This document shows positions 16,285-64,000 of a stretch of DNA of 64,000 nt, one piece after another; position 1 is the stretch's first letter; every line of letters starts with the position of its first letter. Under the pieces are notes generated by a model. The model saw only the letters and a list, made by a program, of their open reading frames with translations. It searched no databases and had not been told where the DNA came from. The translations under genes and the position numbers were made by a program. Source of the stretch: Prochlorococcus marinus (GTDB taxonomy: Bacteria > Cyanobacteriota > Cyanobacteriia > PCC-6307 > Cyanobiaceae); assembly GCF_001180305.1 (NCBI RefSeq), contig NZ_CVSX01000027.1, positions 62,001 through 126,000 on the forward strand, read 5' to 3'.

Positions 16285-17184
16285 TTAACTACAAAAATAA
16301 TCAAGAATTATTTTACTAGACAATGACGGTAGATCTACATGAGGAAGATGACCACAATTTTGCAAACCTACAAAATTTAATCTTTCAATTTTTTTTATAT
16401 TTGAAATCTCATTTTTTCCAAGAATGCGATCATTCTCTCCACATATTGTTTTTATTGGAAAATTTTGTATGTATTTATATGTTCCTGCAAAACCTCCACT
16501 TTTTGCAAATGATGCAAGTGAATTCCTCCATCCTTTACAACCAAGATGAATCGATGCAATTTGCTCTTCCATTTCACCAACACATTTATCAGGATAAGCA
16601 AATGCTTGCCTACAAAGACTTCTTCTGACTTTAGGTATACCTAAAAATGAGGCTCCTAGTTGATTAAACGGGAAAGGGATATTCTTAGGTTCTCCAAAAA
16701 GTCCTGCAGGAGATAAGAGTATAATTTTTTCTATAGAATTTGGCATCTCTGAAGCAAGTTTTAAAGCTGTTGATCCTCCCATAGAGGCACCAATAATTTT
16801 CAGATTATTTGTTATTTTTAAGAGCTCAAGGAGATCAATTAAATTTAAAATTATTTTTGAGGGATTGTATTCTTTTGATGCGCTTCTTGGACTAAAACCA
16901 AAACCTAACAAGTCCGGTATGATAACTTGGAAATTCCTTTTAAGTGACTGATATATTCTTCTAAACTCTAAAAAACTACTATCAAAGCCATGTAAAAGAA
17001 GTATTGGTCGACCTTTACCACCTATAACTACTGGGAATTTCATAGAATTCCATTTTTGATTAAGTTTTATCCACTTAACGTCATTCGCTAAATAAAGCCC
17101 TAAAGGATCTATAAGTGACATTCTGGCATTATCGAAAAATTCAACATTTAAATCACAAGAATGCTTGGGATAGGTTTTAGTCAA
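16285..17184 (-). CDS. Alpha/beta-fold hydrolase
   Basis: The 299-residue protein has the oxyanion-hole segment LLLHGFDSSFLEFR, the nucleophile elbow IGASMGGSTA with Ser as nucleophile, the acid-containing ICGENDRILG and the late His in NCGHLPHVDLP. The triad is complete. The substrate is unknown; cyanobacterial relatives include esterase- and haloperoxidase-like proteins. It lies 8 bp after the dehydrogenase gene and is probably in the same transcript. Confidence 0.83.
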   Translation of the reverse strand: MTKTYPKHSCDLNVEFFDNARMSLIDPLGLYLANDVKWIKLNQKWNSMKFPVVIGGKGRPILLLHGFDSSFLEFRRIYQSLKRNFQVIIPDLLGFGFSPRSASKEYNPSKIILNLIDLLELLKITNNLKIIGASMGGSTALKLASEMPNSIEKIILLSPAGLFGEPKNIPFPFNQLGASFLGIPKVRRSLCRQAFAYPDKCVGEMEEQIASIHLGCKGWRNSLASFAKSGGFAGTYKYIQNFPIKTICGENDRILGKNEISNIKKIERLNFVGLQNCGHLPHVDLPSLSSKIILDYFCS

Positions 17185-31369: not shown

Positions 31370-33151
31370 TTAGTTTCTGACTTTAATTTTTTTTAATTTA
31401 TTTTTAGTTTCTCTATGTAGATCTCTGGGTAAATCTACCAAACTGTAATCATTAAATATCTGTATCTTTCCTATGGATCTTCCATTTATATTAGTTGAAT
31501 TACAGATTGAGGATATAATATTTGCAACCCTAACACCATCAAATTTACCAAAGTTAAATTTGTAAGTTTCAAAAGAATCATTCTGATAATTATTTCTTCT
31601 ATTTGAATTTCTCATACGATTATTACTATTTCTATTTGATCTATTTCGATCATTATTATTTTGTTTATGAATCCAAGAATCATCTTCATTAACAAAAAAT
31701 GATTTATTACCTATTACTAAATTGATCGCCGCCATTGCAATATTTGAGTCATCCATAGAGTGTTTTTCTTTTAAATTATCTAGTACATCAATAATCAAAG
31801 CTTTATTTTCTTCATTATCATCTTTAGCTAAAGAACTTTTATTCACATTCTCTATAAGTTTCTCCATCCTTTTCTCATTTATTATTTTATTACTTGGGAT
31901 ACTAATTTCATCAATCTTAGTTCTTGTTGAGTTTTCTAAGTTTCTTAGAAAATGTTTTTCTCTTTGATTAACAAATAAAATTGCTTCTCCTGATCTGCCA
32001 GCCCTCCCAGTTCTTCCAATTCTATGAGTATATGTTTCCTTATCAAAAGGAAAATCGTAATTAACAACAAGTTTTATCCTCTCAACATCTAATCCTCTAG
32101 CTGCAACATCAGTCGCAACAAGGATATTAATAAATCCTTTTTTTAATCTATCTACAGTATTTTCTCTTTGATTTTGAGGTATATCTCCATTAAGTACTGC
32201 CACAGTATGACCTGAATTTTCTAAAGCTTCAGCTATTGAAGTAGTAAGTATTTTTGTTCTCACAAAAATTATTACGCCCTTATTATTAAGTTCTAATATT
32301 CTTTTTAAAGCATCTAACTTATGATGCCTTTGTACATATAGAAATTTTTGCGAAATTAATTGAGTTTCTTTTGTGACACTTTTGATTAATATTTCGGCGG
32401 GATCATTTAGATATTTTTTTGCTATGTTTTTTATTTCACTAGGCATTGTTGCTGAAAATAATACCATCTGCTTATTTTCCGGAAGTTGATCTATTATCCA
32501 TTCAATATCTTCAAGAAAACCCATATTTAACATTTCATCTGCCTCATCTAAAACAAGACAATTTATATCTTTAATCTTAAAAGTTCCCTGCCTGATATGA
32601 TCCATTATTCGGCCAGGGGTCCCAACTACTACGTCAACTTTTCTTTTTAATGCAGAAATTTGATTTCGATAGTCTGTACCTCCATATATTGCAACCGTCT
32701 TAAAATTACTAGATTCAGAACTATAACTTTTAAAAGAATCTGCCACTTGAGTTGCTAATTCTCTTGTTGGAGTCATAACTAAAACCTTGGCATTCAATTC
32801 TTTTTTATCTGCAAGTTTTTCTATTAATGGCAATGCGAAAGCTGCGGTCTTTCCTGTTCCTGTCTGTGCTTGGCCTAGTAAATCTCTGCCTAACATTAGT
32901 TCTGGAATTGCAGCTTTTTGGATAGGAGTTGGATTTTTATACCCTTTATTTCTTAACGAATTTAAGATCGATTGATTAAAACCAAAATCGAGGAATCCAT
33001 TCTCATTATCATTTCCTTTCGATACTTGCAATGGTTGAGATTCAATTTCTTTCTTGTTCTCTAAGTTCTTTAACTCAAGTAGCGAAGCATCTTCATTCAG
33101 AGATTTTCCCTGCTCACTATCAAGAGATTTACTATCTTTTTTTAAAGCCAT
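31370..33151 (-). CDS. DEAD-box RNA helicase (CsdA/DeaD-like)
   Basis: The 593-residue protein has the Q-motif (GYKNPTPIQKAAIP), motif I AQTGTGKTAAF, motif II VLDEADEML, motif III SAT, and motif VI HRIGRTGRAGR. A C-terminal DbpA-like RNA-binding domain lies at about 515-590 (GVRVANIISSICNSTNINGRSIG), after an Asn/Arg-rich low-complexity linker. This matches CsdA-type cold-shock helicases that unwind mRNA and help ribosome assembly. A strong hairpin ends 4 nt before its start codon. Confidence 0.92.
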   Translation of the reverse strand: MALKKDSKSLDSEQGKSLNEDASLLELKNLENKKEIESQPLQVSKGNDNENGFLDFGFNQSILNSLRNKGYKNPTPIQKAAIPELMLGRDLLGQAQTGTGKTAAFALPLIEKLADKKELNAKVLVMTPTRELATQVADSFKSYSSESSNFKTVAIYGGTDYRNQISALKRKVDVVVGTPGRIMDHIRQGTFKIKDINCLVLDEADEMLNMGFLEDIEWIIDQLPENKQMVLFSATMPSEIKNIAKKYLNDPAEILIKSVTKETQLISQKFLYVQRHHKLDALKRILELNNKGVIIFVRTKILTTSIAEALENSGHTVAVLNGDIPQNQRENTVDRLKKGFINILVATDVAARGLDVERIKLVVNYDFPFDKETYTHRIGRTGRAGRSGEAILFVNQREKHFLRNLENSTRTKIDEISIPSNKIINEKRMEKLIENVNKSSLAKDDNEENKALIIDVLDNLKEKHSMDDSNIAMAAINLVIGNKSFFVNEDDSWIHKQNNNDRNRSNRNSNNRMRNSNRRNNYQNDSFETYKFNFGKFDGVRVANIISSICNSTNINGRSIGKIQIFNDYSLVDLPRDLHRETKNKLKKIKVRN

Positions 33152-55642: not shown

Positions 55643-55682
55643 CGGGGCGTGGCACAGCTTGGTAGCGCGGGTGCTTTGGGAG
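55643..55682 (+). pseudogene. 5'-half tRNA-Pro remnant
   Basis: Forty bases match the first half of the intact tRNA-Pro (56657 onward), with one difference (GGCACAG for GGCGCAG), up to the anticodon loop at GCTTTGGGAG. The next bases diverge completely. It shares only the 16 bp GCGGGTGCTTTGGGAG with the 3'-half copies, so the crossover point lies in the anticodon arm. It cannot make a functional tRNA. Confidence 0.85.
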
Positions 55683-56656
55683 TTACCGAATATACAAACC
55701 AAAAAGATTGCAAATACTAGGAAAAGATAAATTATTACAGCTTAAAAAGTGAGAGTTAGTGAGAATTAATTAGTTACGCGGGTGTTAAAACTTCTTTAGA
55801 CTTTTTATCTAATTACATCTAGGCTTATTCTTCCAAACAGCAGAATTACAATTGATTTTTACTGGTCCAGAAGATGTTTTCTTTTTATCTTTTTTATCTT
55901 TTTCTTTCTTTGCATCTTCAATCGCCTTTATTTTATCTCTTTCAATTGCTTCAGCAACTAAACGATCCATTTGTGGGCAGAATTCATCTAAAACATTTTT
56001 AGCTTCTCTTGCTGGATCCATTAATTGATTTCCTACGTATTGATCTGGATTTTTAACACTAATCCATCCGCTAGCCTCTCCCTTCCAGTCCACTGTGTAA
56101 TCAATACAATCAGCCTCAACTTTCCAAGATCGAGCAGGTTGATTATTAGTAGTTCTTTCTGTAAACCAATTATAGAACGAACCCTCTATTACACCTCTTG
56201 TATAAAACCATTCTAGATATCTCCCATAAGGTTTTCCTAACTGAACAGCTTTTACTGATTTGGTTCTCATTCTGACTTTAGTACCAGTATCTCTAGTCCA
56301 TGTTCTTAATCCATCTTCGACATCATTCATTCTTTTAGTATCAAGTCCTCTTTTCATAGTCTCAACACAACCAGCGAAATCAGATGCCTTTAAACAAAAC
56401 TCTGCAGTTTCCTTATCTATTTCTGCATTAACAGCAGTAGGTAAAGCCAGAGCTGCCAGTAGTGAAAGTATTAAGCGTTTCATTTTTTAAAAATTTAAGT
56501 AAAGCGGGTGTCATCAAACTTCCCGCTAAATTCAAGAAAAACATTAGTGACAATTTAGCGAGGATTAGTAGATTTTCCTTAAAAAATCGTTTTTTTATCA
56601 ATATTTTTAAAATTTGGTCTTTAACAGATGCATGTTATGGACTAAGATCTTATGAG
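55683..56656. mobile_element. Cassette unit 0, between the 5'-half remnant and intact tRNA-Pro
   Basis: A 974-bp cassette with one exported-protein gene. AGTGAGA repeats (55748-55754 and 55758-55764) are at the left end, and TTAGTGA/TTAGCGA (56544-56550 and 56555-56561) at the right end. A GCGGGTGT..AAACTTC sequence also occurs at both ends. These resemble the paired end repeats of units 1-3 but are weaker. Confidence 0.5.
55809..56483 (-). CDS. Exported protein with CLKA-DF-GC motif
   Basis: The 224-residue protein starts MKRLILSLLAALALPTAVNA, a cleavable signal peptide. The mature part has CLKASDFAGCV near the N terminus, a central WKVEADCIDYTVDWKGEASG, a charged Lys-rich helix, and a C-terminal NCNSAVWKNKPRCN. 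The four to six cysteines could form disulfides. The CLKAxDxxGC motif is shared with the lipoprotein at 56879, so the two are probably paralogs. The function is unknown. Confidence 0.7.
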   Translation of the reverse strand: MKRLILSLLAALALPTAVNAEIDKETAEFCLKASDFAGCVETMKRGLDTKRMNDVEDGLRTWTRDTGTKVRMRTKSVKAVQLGKPYGRYLEWFYTRGVIEGSFYNWFTERTTNNQPARSWKVEADCIDYTVDWKGEASGWISVKNPDQYVGNQLMDPAREAKNVLDEFCPQMDRLVAEAIERDKIKAIEDAKKEKDKKDKKKTSSGPVKINCNSAVWKNKPRCN

Positions 56657-56730
56657 CGGGGCGTGGCGCAGCTTGGTAGCGCGGGTGCTTTGGGAGCACT
56701 AGGTCGCAGGTTCGAATCCTGTCGCCCCGA
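56657..56730 (+). tRNA. tRNA-Pro (anticodon UGG), island anchor
   Basis: A complete 74-nt cloverleaf: acceptor CGGGGCG paired to CGCCCCG, D arm GCGCAGCTTGGTAGCGC, anticodon stem GGTGC/GCACT with loop TTTGGGA and anticodon TGG, T arm CGCAGGTTCGAATCCTGTC. It is the only complete copy in the window; its 3' half recurs at 59160, 61091 and 63978. No CCA is encoded. Confidence 0.95.
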
Positions 56731-56749
56731 CTCTAATAATCCAAGTCAC

Positions 56750-56776
56750 AGACAGGTTTCCTAGCCTGTCTTTTTT
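56750..56776 (+). terminator. Intrinsic terminator of tRNA-Pro
   Basis: AGACAGG at 56750-56756 pairs with CCTGTCT at 56765-56771 around an 8-nt loop, followed by a T-run. Similar hairpins with different stem sequence follow the first two 3'-half copies. Confidence 0.85.
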
Positions 56777-56803
56777 ATTGGTTACATTTTAGAATAATGA
56801 GAC

Positions 56804-56865
56804 TGAGCGAGCTTTGAGCGAGGATTTGCAATACCTTGCATAACCTTGCTGCCTGACCTCGCTCA
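56804..56865. repeat. Arm-type repeats at the left end of unit 1
   Basis: TGAGCGAG occurs at 56804-56811 and 56815-56822 (11-bp period) and inverted, as CTCGCTCA, at 56858-56865. Between them are two CCTTGC words about 11 bp apart. This arrangement of direct and inverted short sites beside a tRNA end resembles tyrosine recombinase arm sites. Function is inferred. Confidence 0.7.
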
Positions 56866-57607: not shown

Positions 57608-58234
57608 TTAATCTTCCTTTTTTCTTGTATTTCTCTCAATAGAAAATAAGGCAGAGGAAATAGATGAGGAGGCAACAACTGCAAGTCCATAACCAATTAC
57701 AAATGGTGAAACTATTCTTTGCCCGTATTTGATATCATTTCTATTTTGCATTTTAATTTTATAGGTTTTATAAATATCGTTTTGACTATTTAGTTTTTCT
57801 ACTAAGTCCTGCCGATACTTACCTAAACTCATATTCCCGATATCAGGAAATTTTGCTATCAGATATTCATTAAATTTTATTTCCCTATATTTTATATATT
57901 CCTGCCAACTTGGATAATTTAAAACTTTTTTACCATCTTTAGATATAGGTTGAACTTTATTATTTTCTTTAGCCCACTCAGTTGAGCTTAAAAAAGGTTT
58001 ATCTTTTGAATCTGATTTAATCCAGTCATATAAAGTTATAGGAATCATTTCTTGAGTTATATAATCTTCTCCGAAATATTCTTGCTTACTTTTTGGAAAC
58101 TCTATAAATGTAGAATTTAAGAAAAGAATTATCCCACTTAGAAAAGCAAAAAATCCACTTACACCAATAAAATTCCAAAGATGCCTACCCCAGTTAAAAA
58201 ATATTTTCTTTTCAAATGAATTTGCTATTCCCAT
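57608..58234 (-). CDS. Two-helix membrane protein of cassette unit 1
   Basis: The 208-residue protein has hydrophobic segments at about 22-45 (LWNFIGVSGFFAFLSGIILF) and 177-198. A large soluble middle lies between, so both termini are likely on the same side. I recognise no domain. It is preceded by the shared 17-bp motif (58262-58278) and followed without gap by the lipoprotein gene, so the two form an operon. Confidence 0.65.
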   Translation of the reverse strand: MGIANSFEKKIFFNWGRHLWNFIGVSGFFAFLSGIILFLNSTFIEFPKSKQEYFGEDYITQEMIPITLYDWIKSDSKDKPFLSSTEWAKENNKVQPISKDGKKVLNYPSWQEYIKYREIKFNEYLIAKFPDIGNMSLGKYRQDLVEKLNSQNDIYKTYKIKMQNRNDIKYGQRIVSPFVIGYGLAVVASSSISSALFSIERNTRKKED

Positions 58235-58261
58235 AAAAAAAGGAGCTAGTTGCCCCTTATT

Positions 58262-58278
58262 TTAGATCGACTGTCAAT
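58262..58278 (-). promoter_or_regulatory. Shared cassette promoter motif, copy 1
   Basis: TTAGATCGACTGTCAAT on the plus strand, 27 bp before the start codon of the 57608 gene. In the sense direction it reads ATTGACAGTCGATCTAA and continues into TAAAAT, a -10-like hexamer. A GGGGC..GCTCC hairpin and a T-run lie between it and the ATG. Confidence 0.7.
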
Positions 58279-58315: not shown

Positions 58316-58915
58316 TTATAAACCAAGAATCTTTTTTCTCATCTCTTTATATTCTTCATCTGTAATAACGTTTCTCTCTTTCATTGATAATAAATCTTTA
58401 AGTTTTTGTTCCATTTCTTCCTCACTATTTTTTTCTGGAACTATTTCTAAAGGTCTCTCAAGATTTTCTTTTTTGCCTGGGGTAGGTTTTCCTGCATCTA
58501 CCCATTTAGCAACAATTTGTCTCATATCTCTTTCATATTGGTTGCCCTGGTACCAAACCCATAACAGAATCAGAATCCCAGGAATAACATAAGCAATTAA
58601 CCCAATAATTATGAGAATAAAAGCAAGGCATCCTCCCATCTTGCTTGGGATTGGATATCCCATCGACTTTGCCCACAGAACTGCTTTCTCCCTAGTTTCA
58701 GATTCAGTCATTGGATTAGATTTAAACCCTTTATCTTCTAATTTTTTTGCGACAATTCCTTGAGGGATTTTACATATAATTTTGCCTTCCGCATCACAAA
58801 GTTCATAATAAATGCCCTTGTAACCTGACAAAGCCTCATCAATTTGGGTATCGCTATTTATCTCGCCACGATCAATTGCATAACTTAATGCTGCCTTAAA
58901 AGCCTCGTTTGCCAT
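58316..58915 (-). CDS. Membrane protein with C-terminal SHOCT-like domain
   Basis: The 199-residue protein has a cytosolic N-terminal part (about 1-93), a hydrophobic pair at 94-122 (LAFILIIIGLIAYVIPGILILLW), and a C-terminal SHOCT-like segment (EEMEQKLKDLLSMKERNVIT then DEEYKEMRKKIL). SHOCT domains are small oligomerisation modules at protein ends. The specific role is unknown. The shared promoter motif lies 28 bp upstream. Confidence 0.7.
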   Translation of the reverse strand: MANEAFKAALSYAIDRGEINSDTQIDEALSGYKGIYYELCDAEGKIICKIPQGIVAKKLEDKGFKSNPMTESETREKAVLWAKSMGYPIPSKMGGCLAFILIIIGLIAYVIPGILILLWVWYQGNQYERDMRQIVAKWVDAGKPTPGKKENLERPLEIVPEKNSEEEMEQKLKDLLSMKERNVITDEEYKEMRKKILGL

Positions 58916-58943
58916 TAATACTTAGTTGCTAATGAACTTTATT

Positions 58944-58960
58944 TTAGATCGACTGTCAAT
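58944..58960 (-). promoter_or_regulatory. Shared cassette promoter motif, copy 2
   Basis: TTAGATCGACTGTCAAT, 28 bp before the SHOCT gene start. The downstream leader ends TAAGTATTAATGG, which recurs at the start of the 62703 gene. No leader hairpin is obvious in this copy. Confidence 0.7.
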
Positions 58961-58986: not shown

Positions 58987-59032
58987 AGTGCTCATAGGGC
59001 ACTAGGTTGCTCGTGAGCGAGATTTGAGCGAG
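58987..59032. repeat. Right end of unit 1: anticodon-arm mimic and TGAGCGAG pair
   Basis: AGTGC-TCATAGG-GCACT (58987-59003) is a perfect 5-bp stem with a 7-nt loop, continued by AGGTTGC. It resembles the tRNA-Pro anticodon arm GGTGC-TTTGGGA-GCACT then AGGTCGC. TGAGCGAG follows at 59014-59021 and 59025-59032. The same block is at 63804-63849. Confidence 0.7.
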
Positions 59033-59110: not shown

Positions 59111-59213
59111 TAAGCTATAGCCTCACTTGTTTCTCATGGGGGCTGTCGCATTTTGCGTAGCGGGTGCTTTGGGAGCACTAGGTCGCAGGTTCGAATCCTG
59201 TCGCCCCGACTCT
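59111..59213 (+). repeat. tRNA-Pro 3'-half copy 1 with conserved lead-in
   Basis: Positions 59160-59213 are identical to the intact tRNA-Pro from GCGGGTGCTTTGGG to GACTCT. The 5' half is replaced by GTCGCATTTTGCGTA, which keeps a short hairpin. A lead-in starting TAAGCTATAGCC and ending TTGTTTCT (59111-59134) is identical in all three copies. It is a probable att-like boundary, not a working tRNA. Confidence 0.8.
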
Positions 59214-59284: not shown

Positions 59285-59343
59285 TAGCGATTATATAGCG
59301 ATTATTTGCTATACCTTGCATAACCTTGCTGCCTTAATCGCTA
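59285..59343. repeat. Arm-type repeats at the left end of unit 2
   Basis: TAGCGATTA occurs at 59285-59293 and 59296-59304 (11-bp period) and inverted, as TAATCGCTA, at 59335-59343. The intervening TTGCATAACCTTGCTGCC also occurs at the left ends of units 1 and 3, although the flanking word differs. Confidence 0.7.
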
Positions 59344-60929: not shown

Positions 60930-60949
60930 TAGCGATTATTTAGCGATTA
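60930..60949. repeat. Right end repeat pair of unit 2
   Basis: TAGCGATTA at 60930-60938 and 60941-60949 (11-bp period) matches the left pair of the same unit. A shortened remnant of the anticodon-arm block (AGCACTATGTTGTAGC) lies just before it. Confidence 0.7.
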
Positions 60950-61039: not shown

Positions 61040-61142
61040 TAAGCTATAGCCTCACTTGTTTCTTGTGGGTACTGTCGCAAATTGCGTACTGGGTGCTTTG
61101 GGAGCACTAGGTCGCAGGTTCGAATCCTGTCGCCCCGACTCT
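61040..61142 (+). repeat. tRNA-Pro 3'-half copy 2 with conserved lead-in
   Basis: 61091-61142 is identical to the intact tRNA-Pro from GGGTGCTTTGGG through GACTCT. The D-arm position reads GTCGCAAATTGCGTA, which keeps a CGCAA/TTGCG stem while differing from copies 1 and 3. The lead-in TAAGCTATAGCC...TTGTTTCT is at 61040-61063. Confidence 0.8.
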
Positions 61143-61212: not shown

Positions 61213-61274
61213 TGAGCGAGCATTGAGCGAGATTCTGCTATATCTTGCATAACCTTGCTGCCTAACATCACTCA
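61213..61274. repeat. Arm-type repeats at the left end of unit 3
   Basis: TGAGCGAG at 61213-61220 and 61224-61231 with an 11-bp period. The inverted partner is degenerate (ATCACTCA at 61267-61274). The CCTTGC-like middle is conserved with TTGCATAACCTTGCTGCC. Confidence 0.7.
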
Positions 61275-61525: not shown

Positions 61526-62094
61526 TTAATCTTTTCTGAATTAGATTCATTAATGATATTGCCAACAGATTTAATAGTTGTCAAAACTATTGCGATGGTT
61601 AAAGGAATACCCAGAATTATTGTAATTGCAGTAAAAAAGAATTTCCTTTTTTCCTTTTTCTCCTTATGAAATTGTTTTTTGCATTCTTCAATTTTTTTCT
61701 TCATTTCAGAAGTCTTTATAAGTTGTTTAATTTCATATGCTCTATCCTCATATCTAAAAAATATTTCTTGCTTATAATCCAAAAAATCTGGATGACTTAA
61801 AGCCCATTGTTTCCATTTAGTCCATAATTGTATGGCAGTTTGTCTTTTTTGTCCCTGTATTAAAAAAGCATCTCCACCAACATCAGCACCATACATACCA
61901 GTAATTGCTCCTGCGGCTGCACTTCCTGCAATATTTCTAGTCTTAGTTGTAATGGGTTTTACATATACTTCAAATTTTTCCAAAAATGCACAAATAATTT
62001 CATCTAATGTTGGCTTTGGTTCTAATCGTAATTCAGGAATATTTCTTTCTATATACTTCTCCAACTCAATAGTTATTTTTTCTATTTCAGCCAT
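61522..62094 (-). CDS. Tail-anchored cassette protein of unknown family
   Basis: The 190-residue protein has a cytosolic N-terminal region with NIAGSAAAGAITGMYGADVG (Gly/Ala-rich), a charged helical region, and a C-terminal membrane segment at about 156-178 (KFFFTAITIILGIPLTIAIV). I do not recognise it. The shared promoter motif lies 27 bp upstream, and its stop overlaps the lipoprotein-leader fragment. Confidence 0.6.
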   Translation of the reverse strand: MAEIEKITIELEKYIERNIPELRLEPKPTLDEIICAFLEKFEVYVKPITTKTRNIAGSAAAGAITGMYGADVGGDAFLIQGQKRQTAIQLWTKWKQWALSHPDFLDYKQEIFFRYEDRAYEIKQLIKTSEMKKKIEECKKQFHKEKKEKRKFFFTAITIILGIPLTIAIVLTTIKSVGNIINESNSEKIK

Positions 62095-62121
62095 TAAAAA
62101 AGGAGCTAATTTCCCTTTATT

Positions 62122-62138
62122 TTAGATCGACTGTCAAT
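62122..62138 (-). promoter_or_regulatory. Shared cassette promoter motif, copy 3
   Basis: TTAGATCGACTGTCAAT, 27 bp before the 61522 gene start. The leader reads AGGGAAATTAGCTCCTTTTTT before ATG, like copy 1 with a weakened stem. Confidence 0.7.
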
Positions 62139-62142
62139 CGAA

Positions 62143-62397
62143 TTATTTTGTTTTAAGTTCAGGCTCGTACACAGCACCATTGCAAACTGCTACCGCAATA
62201 CTTTCTTTTGATGCTTTATCCCAACTTTTAAGTTCCATCTCATATTTATCAATCCATTGAAAAGTTTTTTTAAAGCATTGATTCCAATAAAATGCCTTTC
62301 TTGAAATAGGTATCAAGGAAATAAAAATGAGTACTATTGCAGTTGTAGATGTAATTACACAGTATTTGATGGCTTTTGGGCCTTTATTAGGGGACAT
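62143..62397 (-). CDS. Small membrane protein of cassette unit 3
   Basis: The 84-residue protein has one membrane segment at about 8-30 (AIKYCVITSTTAIVLIFISL) and a Lys/Trp-containing exposed tail with two cysteines. No family is recognised. The shared promoter motif is 26 bp upstream, with a GGG..CCC hairpin and T-run just before the ATG. Confidence 0.6.
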   Translation of the reverse strand: MSPNKGPKAIKYCVITSTTAIVLIFISLIPISRKAFYWNQCFKKTFQWIDKYEMELKSWDKASKESIAVAVCNGAVYEPELKTK

Positions 62398-62423
62398 AAA
62401 AATAGGGTTTTATCCCTCTCAGT

Positions 62424-62440
62424 TTAGATCGACTGTCAAT
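62424..62440 (-). promoter_or_regulatory. Shared cassette promoter motif, copy 4
   Basis: TTAGATCGACTGTCAAT, 26 bp before the 62143 gene start. The -10-like hexamer is TAAACT here. The leader contains AGGGATAAAACCCT followed by T residues. Confidence 0.7.
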
Positions 62441-63272: not shown

Positions 63273-63734
63273 TCACTTAAACATTATTTCCCAATTATTC
63301 TTTCTTTCTGCTTTAAATTCTTCACTAGGTTCAAAGTGTCTTAGGCTTCCACCTTTTCTTTGTGTTCCATCTTTCTTAGGTTTAGCTAAGTAATCTATAT
63401 GTCTTTGTTTTATTGTTTCGCTTACTTCTTTGCTACTAAAAATAAAAAAGTTTGGAAGTACATCATCTTCACCAACTTCTACAACCACATACCAAAGTTT
63501 CTCAAAAGCCTGTTCATTTTTTAAACCCATTAACCATGAACTTTTCTTTCCATCAATAGTTCTAGTCTTAACTTGAATATTTACTGTATTTAAAGTATCT
63601 GGTTCAGTTGCAATAACATCTATCAATGTTTGCCCATCATCTGTTTTGCCTGCGATATAACCCCTCTGAGCTAATTGGGCTAAAACATAAAACTCACCTG
63701 CATTTCCTAAATTTTTATTCTTATTTGCTTCCAT
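63273..63734 (-). CDS. PDDEXK-like nuclease-fold protein
   Basis: The 153-residue protein has the pattern of a PDDEXK nuclease: an early Glu in NAGEFYVLAQLAQRGY, Asp in TLIDVIATEP and the QxK-like NIQVKTRT. These correspond to the E, D and (E/Q)xK catalytic positions. A later domain contains FFIFSSKEVSETIKQRHIDY. Relatives include resolvase-like and restriction-like proteins; which one cannot be told. The shared promoter motif lies 27 bp upstream. Confidence 0.6.
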   Translation of the reverse strand: MEANKNKNLGNAGEFYVLAQLAQRGYIAGKTDDGQTLIDVIATEPDTLNTVNIQVKTRTIDGKKSSWLMGLKNEQAFEKLWYVVVEVGEDDVLPNFFIFSSKEVSETIKQRHIDYLAKPKKDGTQRKGGSLRHFEPSEEFKAERKNNWEIMFK

Positions 63735-63761
63735 AAAAGAAGAGGGTTTTATCCCTCCATG

Positions 63762-63778
63762 TTAGATCGACTGTCAAT
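63762..63778 (-). promoter_or_regulatory. Shared cassette promoter motif, copy 5
   Basis: TTAGATCGACTGTCAAT, 27 bp before the 63273 gene start. The -10-like hexamer is TAACAT. The leader hairpin GAGGG-ATAAAA-CCCTC plus T residues is the strongest of the five. Confidence 0.7.
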
Positions 63779-63803: not shown

Positions 63804-63849
63804 AGTGCTCATAGGGCACTAGGTTGCTTGTGAGCGAGATTTGAGCGAG
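63804..63849. repeat. Right end of unit 3: anticodon-arm mimic and TGAGCGAG pair
   Basis: AGTGC-TCATAGG-GCACT at 63804-63820 and TGAGCGAG at 63831-63838 and 63842-63849. The block matches 58987-59032 except one base (TGCTTG for TGCTCG). That two units share it suggests one element family. Confidence 0.7.
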
Positions 63850-63928: not shown

Positions 63929-64000
63929 TAAGCTATAGCCTCACTTGTTTCTCATGGGGGCTGTCGCATTTTGCGTAGCGGGTGCTTTGGGAGCACTAGG
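63929..64000 (+). repeat. tRNA-Pro 3'-half copy 3, cut by the window end
   Basis: The lead-in TAAGCTATAGCC...TTGTTTCT lies at 63929-63952, and the match to tRNA-Pro starts at GCGGGTGCTTTGGG (63978) and runs to the edge at ACTAGG. The 5' part reads GTCGCATTTTGCGTA, as in copy 1. The array therefore continues to the right. Confidence 0.75.

Follow-up and report, generated by a model that had tools for sequence, protein, structure and literature searches.

Tandem units at the tRNA-Pro gene

The window, by which we mean the whole 64-kb stretch of DNA analyzed here, is part of contig C27 of a Prochlorococcus genome (G000, 91% complete, 85 contigs). It contains a complete tRNA-Pro (TGG) gene, downstream of which the 3' part of the gene, hereafter the core, is repeated (Table 1). 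The core copies at 56692, 59171, and 61100, across the window end, and at C27:130182 bound units 1–4 and the start of unit 5; the units are delimited, as integrated elements are, by sequences matching the end of the presumed target gene. None of the units of the window contains an integrase gene.

Short repeated sites lie inside both ends of the units, as in attachment sites, and consist of a word in two direct copies with an 11-bp period. On the plus strand of the window, units 1 and 3 hold all eight copies of TGAGCGAG, in such 11-bp pairs at either end, and unit 2 likewise holds all four copies of TAGCGATTA; the base composition predicts ~0.24 copies of TGAGCGAG per strand. Beyond the window, unit 4 carries GGGGCTCTA at both ends and unit 5 carries GGAGCGCTA at its left end, the right end lying beyond the contig. 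The left pairs are accompanied by phased TTGC repeats, three in units 1 and 2 and two only in unit 3, which are retained between units 1 and 2 although the word differs. The CCTTGC words had been described in the initial annotation as ~11 bp apart; the measured spacing is 10 bp. The positions that it gave for the direct and inverted words of units 1–3, including the decayed inverted word of unit 3, proved correct, and the right ends, absent from that annotation, carry each unit's doubled word too.

Table 1. Features of the tRNA-Pro array in the window (window coordinates)
Feature	Position	Strand	Details
Complete tRNA-Pro (TGG)	56657..56731	+	Presumed integration target; 3' part = shared core; ARAGORN
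Unit 1, putative left arm: TGAGCGAG x2, period 11	56804..56822	+	Copies at 56804, 56815
Unit 1, three TTGC phased at 10 bp (CCTTGC words)	56826..56849	+	Starts 56826, 56836, 56846
Unit 1, inverted third word CTCGCTCA	56858..56865	-	
Unit 1, putative right arm: TGAGCGAG x2, period 11	59014..59032	+	Copies at 59014, 59025
Core copy (3' part of tRNA-Pro), units 1/2 boundary	59171..59198	+	
Unit 2, putative left arm: TAGCGATTA x2, period 11	59285..59304	+	Copies at 59285, 59296
Unit 2, three phased TTGC			Starts 59306, 59316, 59326
Unit 2, inverted third word TAATCGCTA	59335..59343	-	
Unit 2, putative right arm: TAGCGATTA x2, period 11	60930..60949	+	Copies at 60930, 60941
Core copy, units 2/3 boundary	61100..61127	+	
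Unit 3, putative left arm: TGAGCGAG x2, period 11	61213..61231	+	Copies at 61213, 61224
Unit 3, decayed inverted word ATCACTCA	~61267..61274	-	Position by hand count
Unit 3, putative right arm: TGAGCGAG x2	63831..63849	+	Copies at 63831, 63842
Core copy start, units 3/4 boundary	63982..64000	+	Crosses window end (C27:125982-126042)

Several minor features surround these sites. Upstream of the complete tRNA-Pro gene, the region 55644-56656 holds a 5' half copy of tRNA-Pro (at ~55644) and a remnant unit, and TTAGTGACAATTTAGCGAGGATT at ~56544-56566 is similar to the right ends beside the L208 and L210 integrases, a class located 5' of the tRNA. At ~56751-56777, a stem-loop with a T run resembles a tRNA terminator; judged by eye, such a stem-loop stands between core and words in many left ends, and the words lie ~45 bp closer to the core in left ends that lack it. 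In units 1 and 3, a fragment of the tRNA core, GGGCACTAGGTTG, directly precedes the right-end words (58997-59009 and 63814-63826), and in many integrases similar fragments, GCACTAGG, lie close to the start codon. Beside the genes of these two units there are five copies (58231-58278, 58913-58960, 62091-62138, 62393-62440, and 63731-63778) of a repeat that ends in TTAGATCGACTGTCAAT. Pfam profiles identified TPR repeats and DUF4282 in unit 2 and a SHOCT match below the cut-off in unit 1; at E ≤ 0.01, no match was obtained for six other window proteins or for the L206 integrase described below.

Left and right words of a unit match in many genomes

The core was present in 133 of 151 genomes of the genus. 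Arrays from 39 genomes, including that of the window, were merged to 51 stretches, in which we located 309 cores at ≤4 mismatches and 256 units with both ends available. A doubled word (score ≥9, period 10–13) was found in 199/256 left ends and 186/256 right ends, compared with 1/256 and 5/256 after shuffling. The left-right test was restricted to the 159 units that have doubled words on both sides (97/256 were dropped), and two words were taken as matching when they shared a run of at least seven bases. The left and right words matched in 128 of these 159 units, while permuted pairings gave on average 12.6 and at most 25 matches (2000 permutations), and the words of neighboring units facing each other across one core matched in 5/114 cases. 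An earlier version of the test, based on a word scan, gave 125/199 for the unit's own ends, 6/198 across the core, and 360/7716 for random pairs; we adopted the run-sharing test because many of the word-scan failures represented the same word in a longer frame. The left and right words did not match in 31/159 units. Extraction errors account for some of these, among them unit 2 of the window, for which a different repeat had been selected; others look like hybrids. The paired words are thus confirmed as real, beyond chance, and more extensive than first described.

The inverted third word

We searched 220 left ends for an inverted copy of the word (run ≥6) ahead of and behind the pair, with the words assigned to classes by simple string rules. 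In the GCGA class, the inverted own word stands behind the pair in 35/42 left ends; in the CAAAT class, it stands ahead of the pair in 52/87. The rates for unrelated words were 0.108 ahead, 0.152 behind, and 0.238 on either side. Direct and inverted variants go together in the CAAAT class, such as GCCGTCA/TGACGGC, GCCAACA/TGTTGGC, GTGGACA/TGTCCAC, and GCGGTCA/TGACCGC. In the GCGA class, the own word was the best inverted match in 13/15 TAGCGATTA ends and 9/14 TGAGCGAG ends, and in 1/13 GGGCGATC ends and 1/7 GGGCGAGG ends; most of the other GGGCGATC and GGGCGAGG ends were ties because both words contain GGGCGA. An inverted copy occurs in 22/41 ends with the remaining words, and on either side in 12/50 ends of the class with a 12-bp period (GGGTAGCT type), for which the null rate is 0.238. 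A behind-only version of the test yielded 32/220 at a match of 0.8 (null 0.016) and missed the CAAAT class, since its inverted copy stands ahead of the pair. Hence the covariation of all three words, proposed earlier from units 1 and 2, holds for the GCGA and CAAAT classes and not for the 12-bp class, whose inverted copy is at chance level, so the three-word rule is not universal. The 11–12 bp spacing of the direct copies would fit possible cooperative binding on one face of the DNA, as suggested earlier.

Integrase-bearing relatives

In large units, a tyrosine integrase gene lies on the opposite strand immediately inside the right end; this was always so in 23 matches. In these autonomous relatives the integrase gene adjoins the site within the element, as at attachment sites. 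At E ≤ 1e-20, a profile built from nine members detected the integrase family in 101/266 genomes of the genus and no member in the window's own genome (91% complete). A scan of named genomes gave 78 integrase loci in Prochlorococcus, Synechococcus, Cyanobium, and other cyanobacterial records, and PHROGs integrase families were matched by 4/5 integrases, weakly in three. One further locus, L216 (G119:C25:9300-12350), has two divergent integrases of the family facing each other across a tRNA-like gene, recognized as such by eye.

Some integrase-bearing elements carry words of this array. L206 in G161 is an 8,452-bp integrase element that has TGAGCGAG at its left and right ends together with phased TTGC repeats and an inverted GTCGCTCA, and resembles unit 1; by eye, its right end is also closely similar to that of unit 3. 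The L199 element bears the word of unit 5 (GGAGCGCTA). Among integrase-bearing elements with both ends available, the left and right words match by eye in 8/10. In the other two, L160 and L167, the left words are unlike the right words, and the right-end word has no other copy anywhere inside the element; these may be fusions of neighboring units or incomplete switches. The right-end word of the matched units shares at least eight bases with an integrase-bearing right end in 98/128 cases; the reversed-word control gave 22/128, so some of these matches are loose. Among 136 distinct integrases, none was associated with TAGCGATTA, GGGCTCTA, or GGGCGATC.

We propose, with a probability of roughly 85%, that the block 56804-56865 forms the left arm of an attachment site and carries arm-type sites of an integrase, and that the units without an integrase are probably mobilized in trans by integrases of matching specificity. 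The attachment-site core would be the 3' part of tRNA-Pro, and each unit would have been integrated site-specifically and would hold two tandem arm-type sites inside each end, all of the same word; in most units belonging to two of the word classes, a third, inverted copy accompanies them at the left end. In the autonomous elements, the integrase gene would start right beside the right-end words. That position also suits operators of the integrase promoter, used for autoregulation or by a repressor and without a direct role in recombination, given that the doubled word starts ≤50 nt from the integrase start codon in 68/136 cases. Such operators would not be expected around integrase-less units or kilobases away at the left end, where the same words stand, and we consider this explanation very improbable, even if autoregulation could be an added role of the words.

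The integrase N-terminal domain tracks the word

The 68 integrases, among 136 distinct ones, with a direct doubled word starting ≤50 nt from the start codon were used for statistics. The partial correlation of word similarity with N-terminal identity, given catalytic identity, was 0.271 (maximum of 300 permutations, 0.091), while that with catalytic identity, given N-terminal identity, was 0.089 (permutation maximum 0.147, n = 68). The integrases G041/L147, L160, and L167, with the words TTCCGTCAAAA, TGCCGTCAAAT, and TGCGGACAAAT, are 96–98% identical beyond residue ~75 and 49–60% identical before it. Conversely, integrases with a common word are more alike in the N-terminal domain than in the rest (87% vs. 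67% for L171/L183 and 89% vs. 45% for L191/L198). The initial annotation had supposed that the word co-evolves with a binding protein; this is supported, in that the integrase N-terminal domain goes with the word.

The DNA of the trio L160, L167, and L147 is 85–90% identical from the core to the words, 41–63% from the words to codon ~45, and mostly >85% from codon ~70. The L183/L185 profile behaves in the same way, and L288/L287 show a similar drop, less clean, with further dips up to +400. Near-identical integrases with different words differ mainly in the N-terminal domain, and the mosaic segment in which they do so takes in the words as well. Second-strand residues vary with the word in the 12-bp class, with VM accompanying GGTAGCT (2/2), AR accompanying GGGAGCT (2/2), VR accompanying GAGCGCT, and TA accompanying GGATCT (one each), although the cases are few.

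Binding of the doubled words by an excisionase or another accessory protein, which rather than the integrase would differ between words, was also considered. Paired direct words in both arms would suit such a protein too, and the phased TTGC repeats may themselves be accessory-protein sites; yet it is the integrase N-terminal domain that tracks the word with the catalytic part held constant, and the exchanged segment extends from the words into this domain. The accessory protein is accordingly a quite improbable determinant of the word. Under the proposed arm-site function, the N-terminal domain (~75 aa) most likely reads the words, with the other domains acting on the shared tRNA core, and new specificities would arise by replacement of the segment holding the right-end words and the N-terminal domain.

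Predicted structure of the integrase

The AlphaFold2 model of the GGAGCGCTA integrase L247 (35 sequences) has a mean pLDDT of 89.5 and a pTM of 0.70. Its N-terminus consists of a helix (9-22), three strands (26-31, 34-40, and 46-54), and a helix (57-76); the arm-binding (AB) domain of tyrosine recombinases is described, in an excerpt of PMC8138268, as three strands and a helix. The whole model matches the Tn1549 integrase (Z 12.7) and the lambda integrase 1z1b (Z 12.3, 312 residues, rmsd 8.9). The model of the N-terminal domain alone has no clear fold match in the PDB, with the lambda and Tn916 N-terminal domains not among the matches listed, and searching the PDB with a profile of this domain gave no sequence at E ≤ 1. 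Its assignment as a putative arm-binding domain therefore rests on position, secondary structure, and covariation. In the catalytic part, R270, K293, R364, H388, and Y397 (L247 numbering, roles assigned by motif) are invariant in 35/35 aligned integrases, and the first His of HxxR is replaced by Tyr (Y361 in L247) in 35/35 and by Lys in the G004 integrase.

Recurrence of units and probable past mobility

Eighteen unit families are present in at least two genomes, and relatives of 95–100% identity occur between genomes. In 55 of 55 pairs of homologous units between genomes, the units had no homologous neighbor, a missing neighbor at an array end being counted as unshared. Unit 2 of the window recurs in G113 in a different slot, and unit 4 of the window genome has 1.8 kb at 97% in common with a GGGCGATC unit of G109. 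In 85 pairs of matched units with related interiors, the words were the same in 36, different at both ends in 38, and different at one end in 11, under a strict run-length rule by which several of the 11 have similar words and with many pairs from the same families and thus non-independent. For example, two units, one of G050 (at 17154, TAGCGATT) and one of G095 (at 31687, GGGCGATC), are 95% identical inside over 3.8 kb and differ at both ends. The same cargo can apparently occur between different word pairs.

These data bear on the alternative that the words are relics of past integrations and that the units now move passively, by homologous recombination between repeated cores or flanks. Decay would account for the 97/256 units without a clear doubled word at one or both ends, hybrid units do occur, and the window's own genome, 91% complete, yielded no family integrase at E ≤ 1e-20. 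Nevertheless, the units recur as single modules without a common neighbor in 55/55 pairs, related cargo lies between different matched word pairs (38 pairs), and relatives of 95–100% identity occur between genomes; we hold this alternative to be unlikely. The recurrence, cargo, and identity data argue for past mobility of the units, not for activity in the window's genome.

The words, their match at both ends, the N-terminal covariation, the mosaic segment, and the recurrence of units without their neighbors are all patterns read from sequence; physical binding, mobilization in trans, and present-day excision are what we infer from them. For the window, integrase-less units probably were moved in trans by integrases of matching specificity. 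A tentative extension, to which we give somewhat less than even odds, is that the arm words divide one tRNA-Pro attachment site among dozens of largely separate mobility channels. The channel would be set by a contiguous cassette, made up of the right-end words and the N-terminal reader domain, that passes between integrases, and integrase-less cargo would switch channel by exchanging both ends. If so, the islands would be assembled from addressable cargo modules.

Arrays do not avoid equal words, as mutual incompatibility would predict them to: equal words occur in 21 of 524 within-array pairs (permutation mean 26.0, P = 0.18) and in 6/143 adjacent units, for which 7.1 are expected by permutation.

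Comparison with known systems

The following comparisons refer to excerpts of the cited papers. In Cluster K mycobacteriophages, paired 11-bp arm sites flank a core in an RNA gene, the integrase lies beside attP, and variants of the sites go with N-terminal substitutions in the integrase; phage Pixie also has one site in the opposite orientation (PMC3203893). Arm sites with N-terminal covariation are therefore already known. However, the excerpt describes a few phages and two substitutions, while Prochlorococcus has dozens of words at one tRNA-Pro core, exchanges the whole N-terminal domain together with the words, and has many integrase-less units. In lambda attP, the arm sites bound by the N-terminal domain lie away from the core and both arms are within the element, as proposed here (PMC4880445); compared with lambda, the present units are tandem and have different words, and no accessory-protein sites were identified in them.

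CIMEs (cis-mobilizable elements), of which the units of the window are possible counterparts, lack integration and transfer genes, keep attL and attR, and stand in tandem at one site (PMC5704250). The units of the window keep their putative arms, their own genome yielded no family integrase (E ≤ 1e-20), and the coverage for transfer genes was a Pfam scan of nine window proteins; each unit has its own words at both ends, an arm-word specificity that the CIME excerpt does not discuss. The ssrA islands of Dehalococcoides are tandem, bounded by copies of the RNA-gene end, and in part without integration genes; they use a serine recombinase instead, and no arm words are reported in the excerpt (PMC3146451). 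Tycheposons share the Prochlorococcus host, the integration into tRNA genes, and the tyrosine recombinase (cited in PMC10872708), a combination also found in the present family.

Tycheposons have been proposed as phage satellites (PMC11389934, excerpt), and the words might accordingly be packaging or replication signals used by satellites. Their location at both ends around an integration core and their link to the integrase N-terminal domain speak against such signals, which we hold to be extremely improbable, and in favor of arm-type sites.

In the literature that our search covered, which did not include the original tycheposon description, we found no description of paired, element-specific arm words in Prochlorococcus. 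As far as this search reached, the word diversity at one core, the exchange of words and reader as one segment, the coordinated change of both ends, and the arrays of integrase-less units with the same addresses are new. The elements provide a natural aligned set of many arm words and their likely reader domains, including near-isogenic domain swaps, so that the code by which integrase arm-binding domains recognize DNA can be tested. They also suggest, in testable form, which integrase might mobilize a given cargo unit in Prochlorococcus islands, bearing on how units without their own integrase could spread.

Viral contigs

Viral contigs were scanned for exact patterns as well. TAGCGATTATTTAGCGATTA gave no match, and the single match of TGAGCGAGATTTGAGCGAG, in L298, was taken as chance, there being no tRNA core at this position; L298 looks like an unrelated G+C-rich virus contig. 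In the viral contigs L150, L155, and L157, a single core or half of one has the same word on either side, an arrangement that would be expected from a joined attP in a circle, or else from tandem copies. In L153 and L154, different words stand on the two sides of the core.
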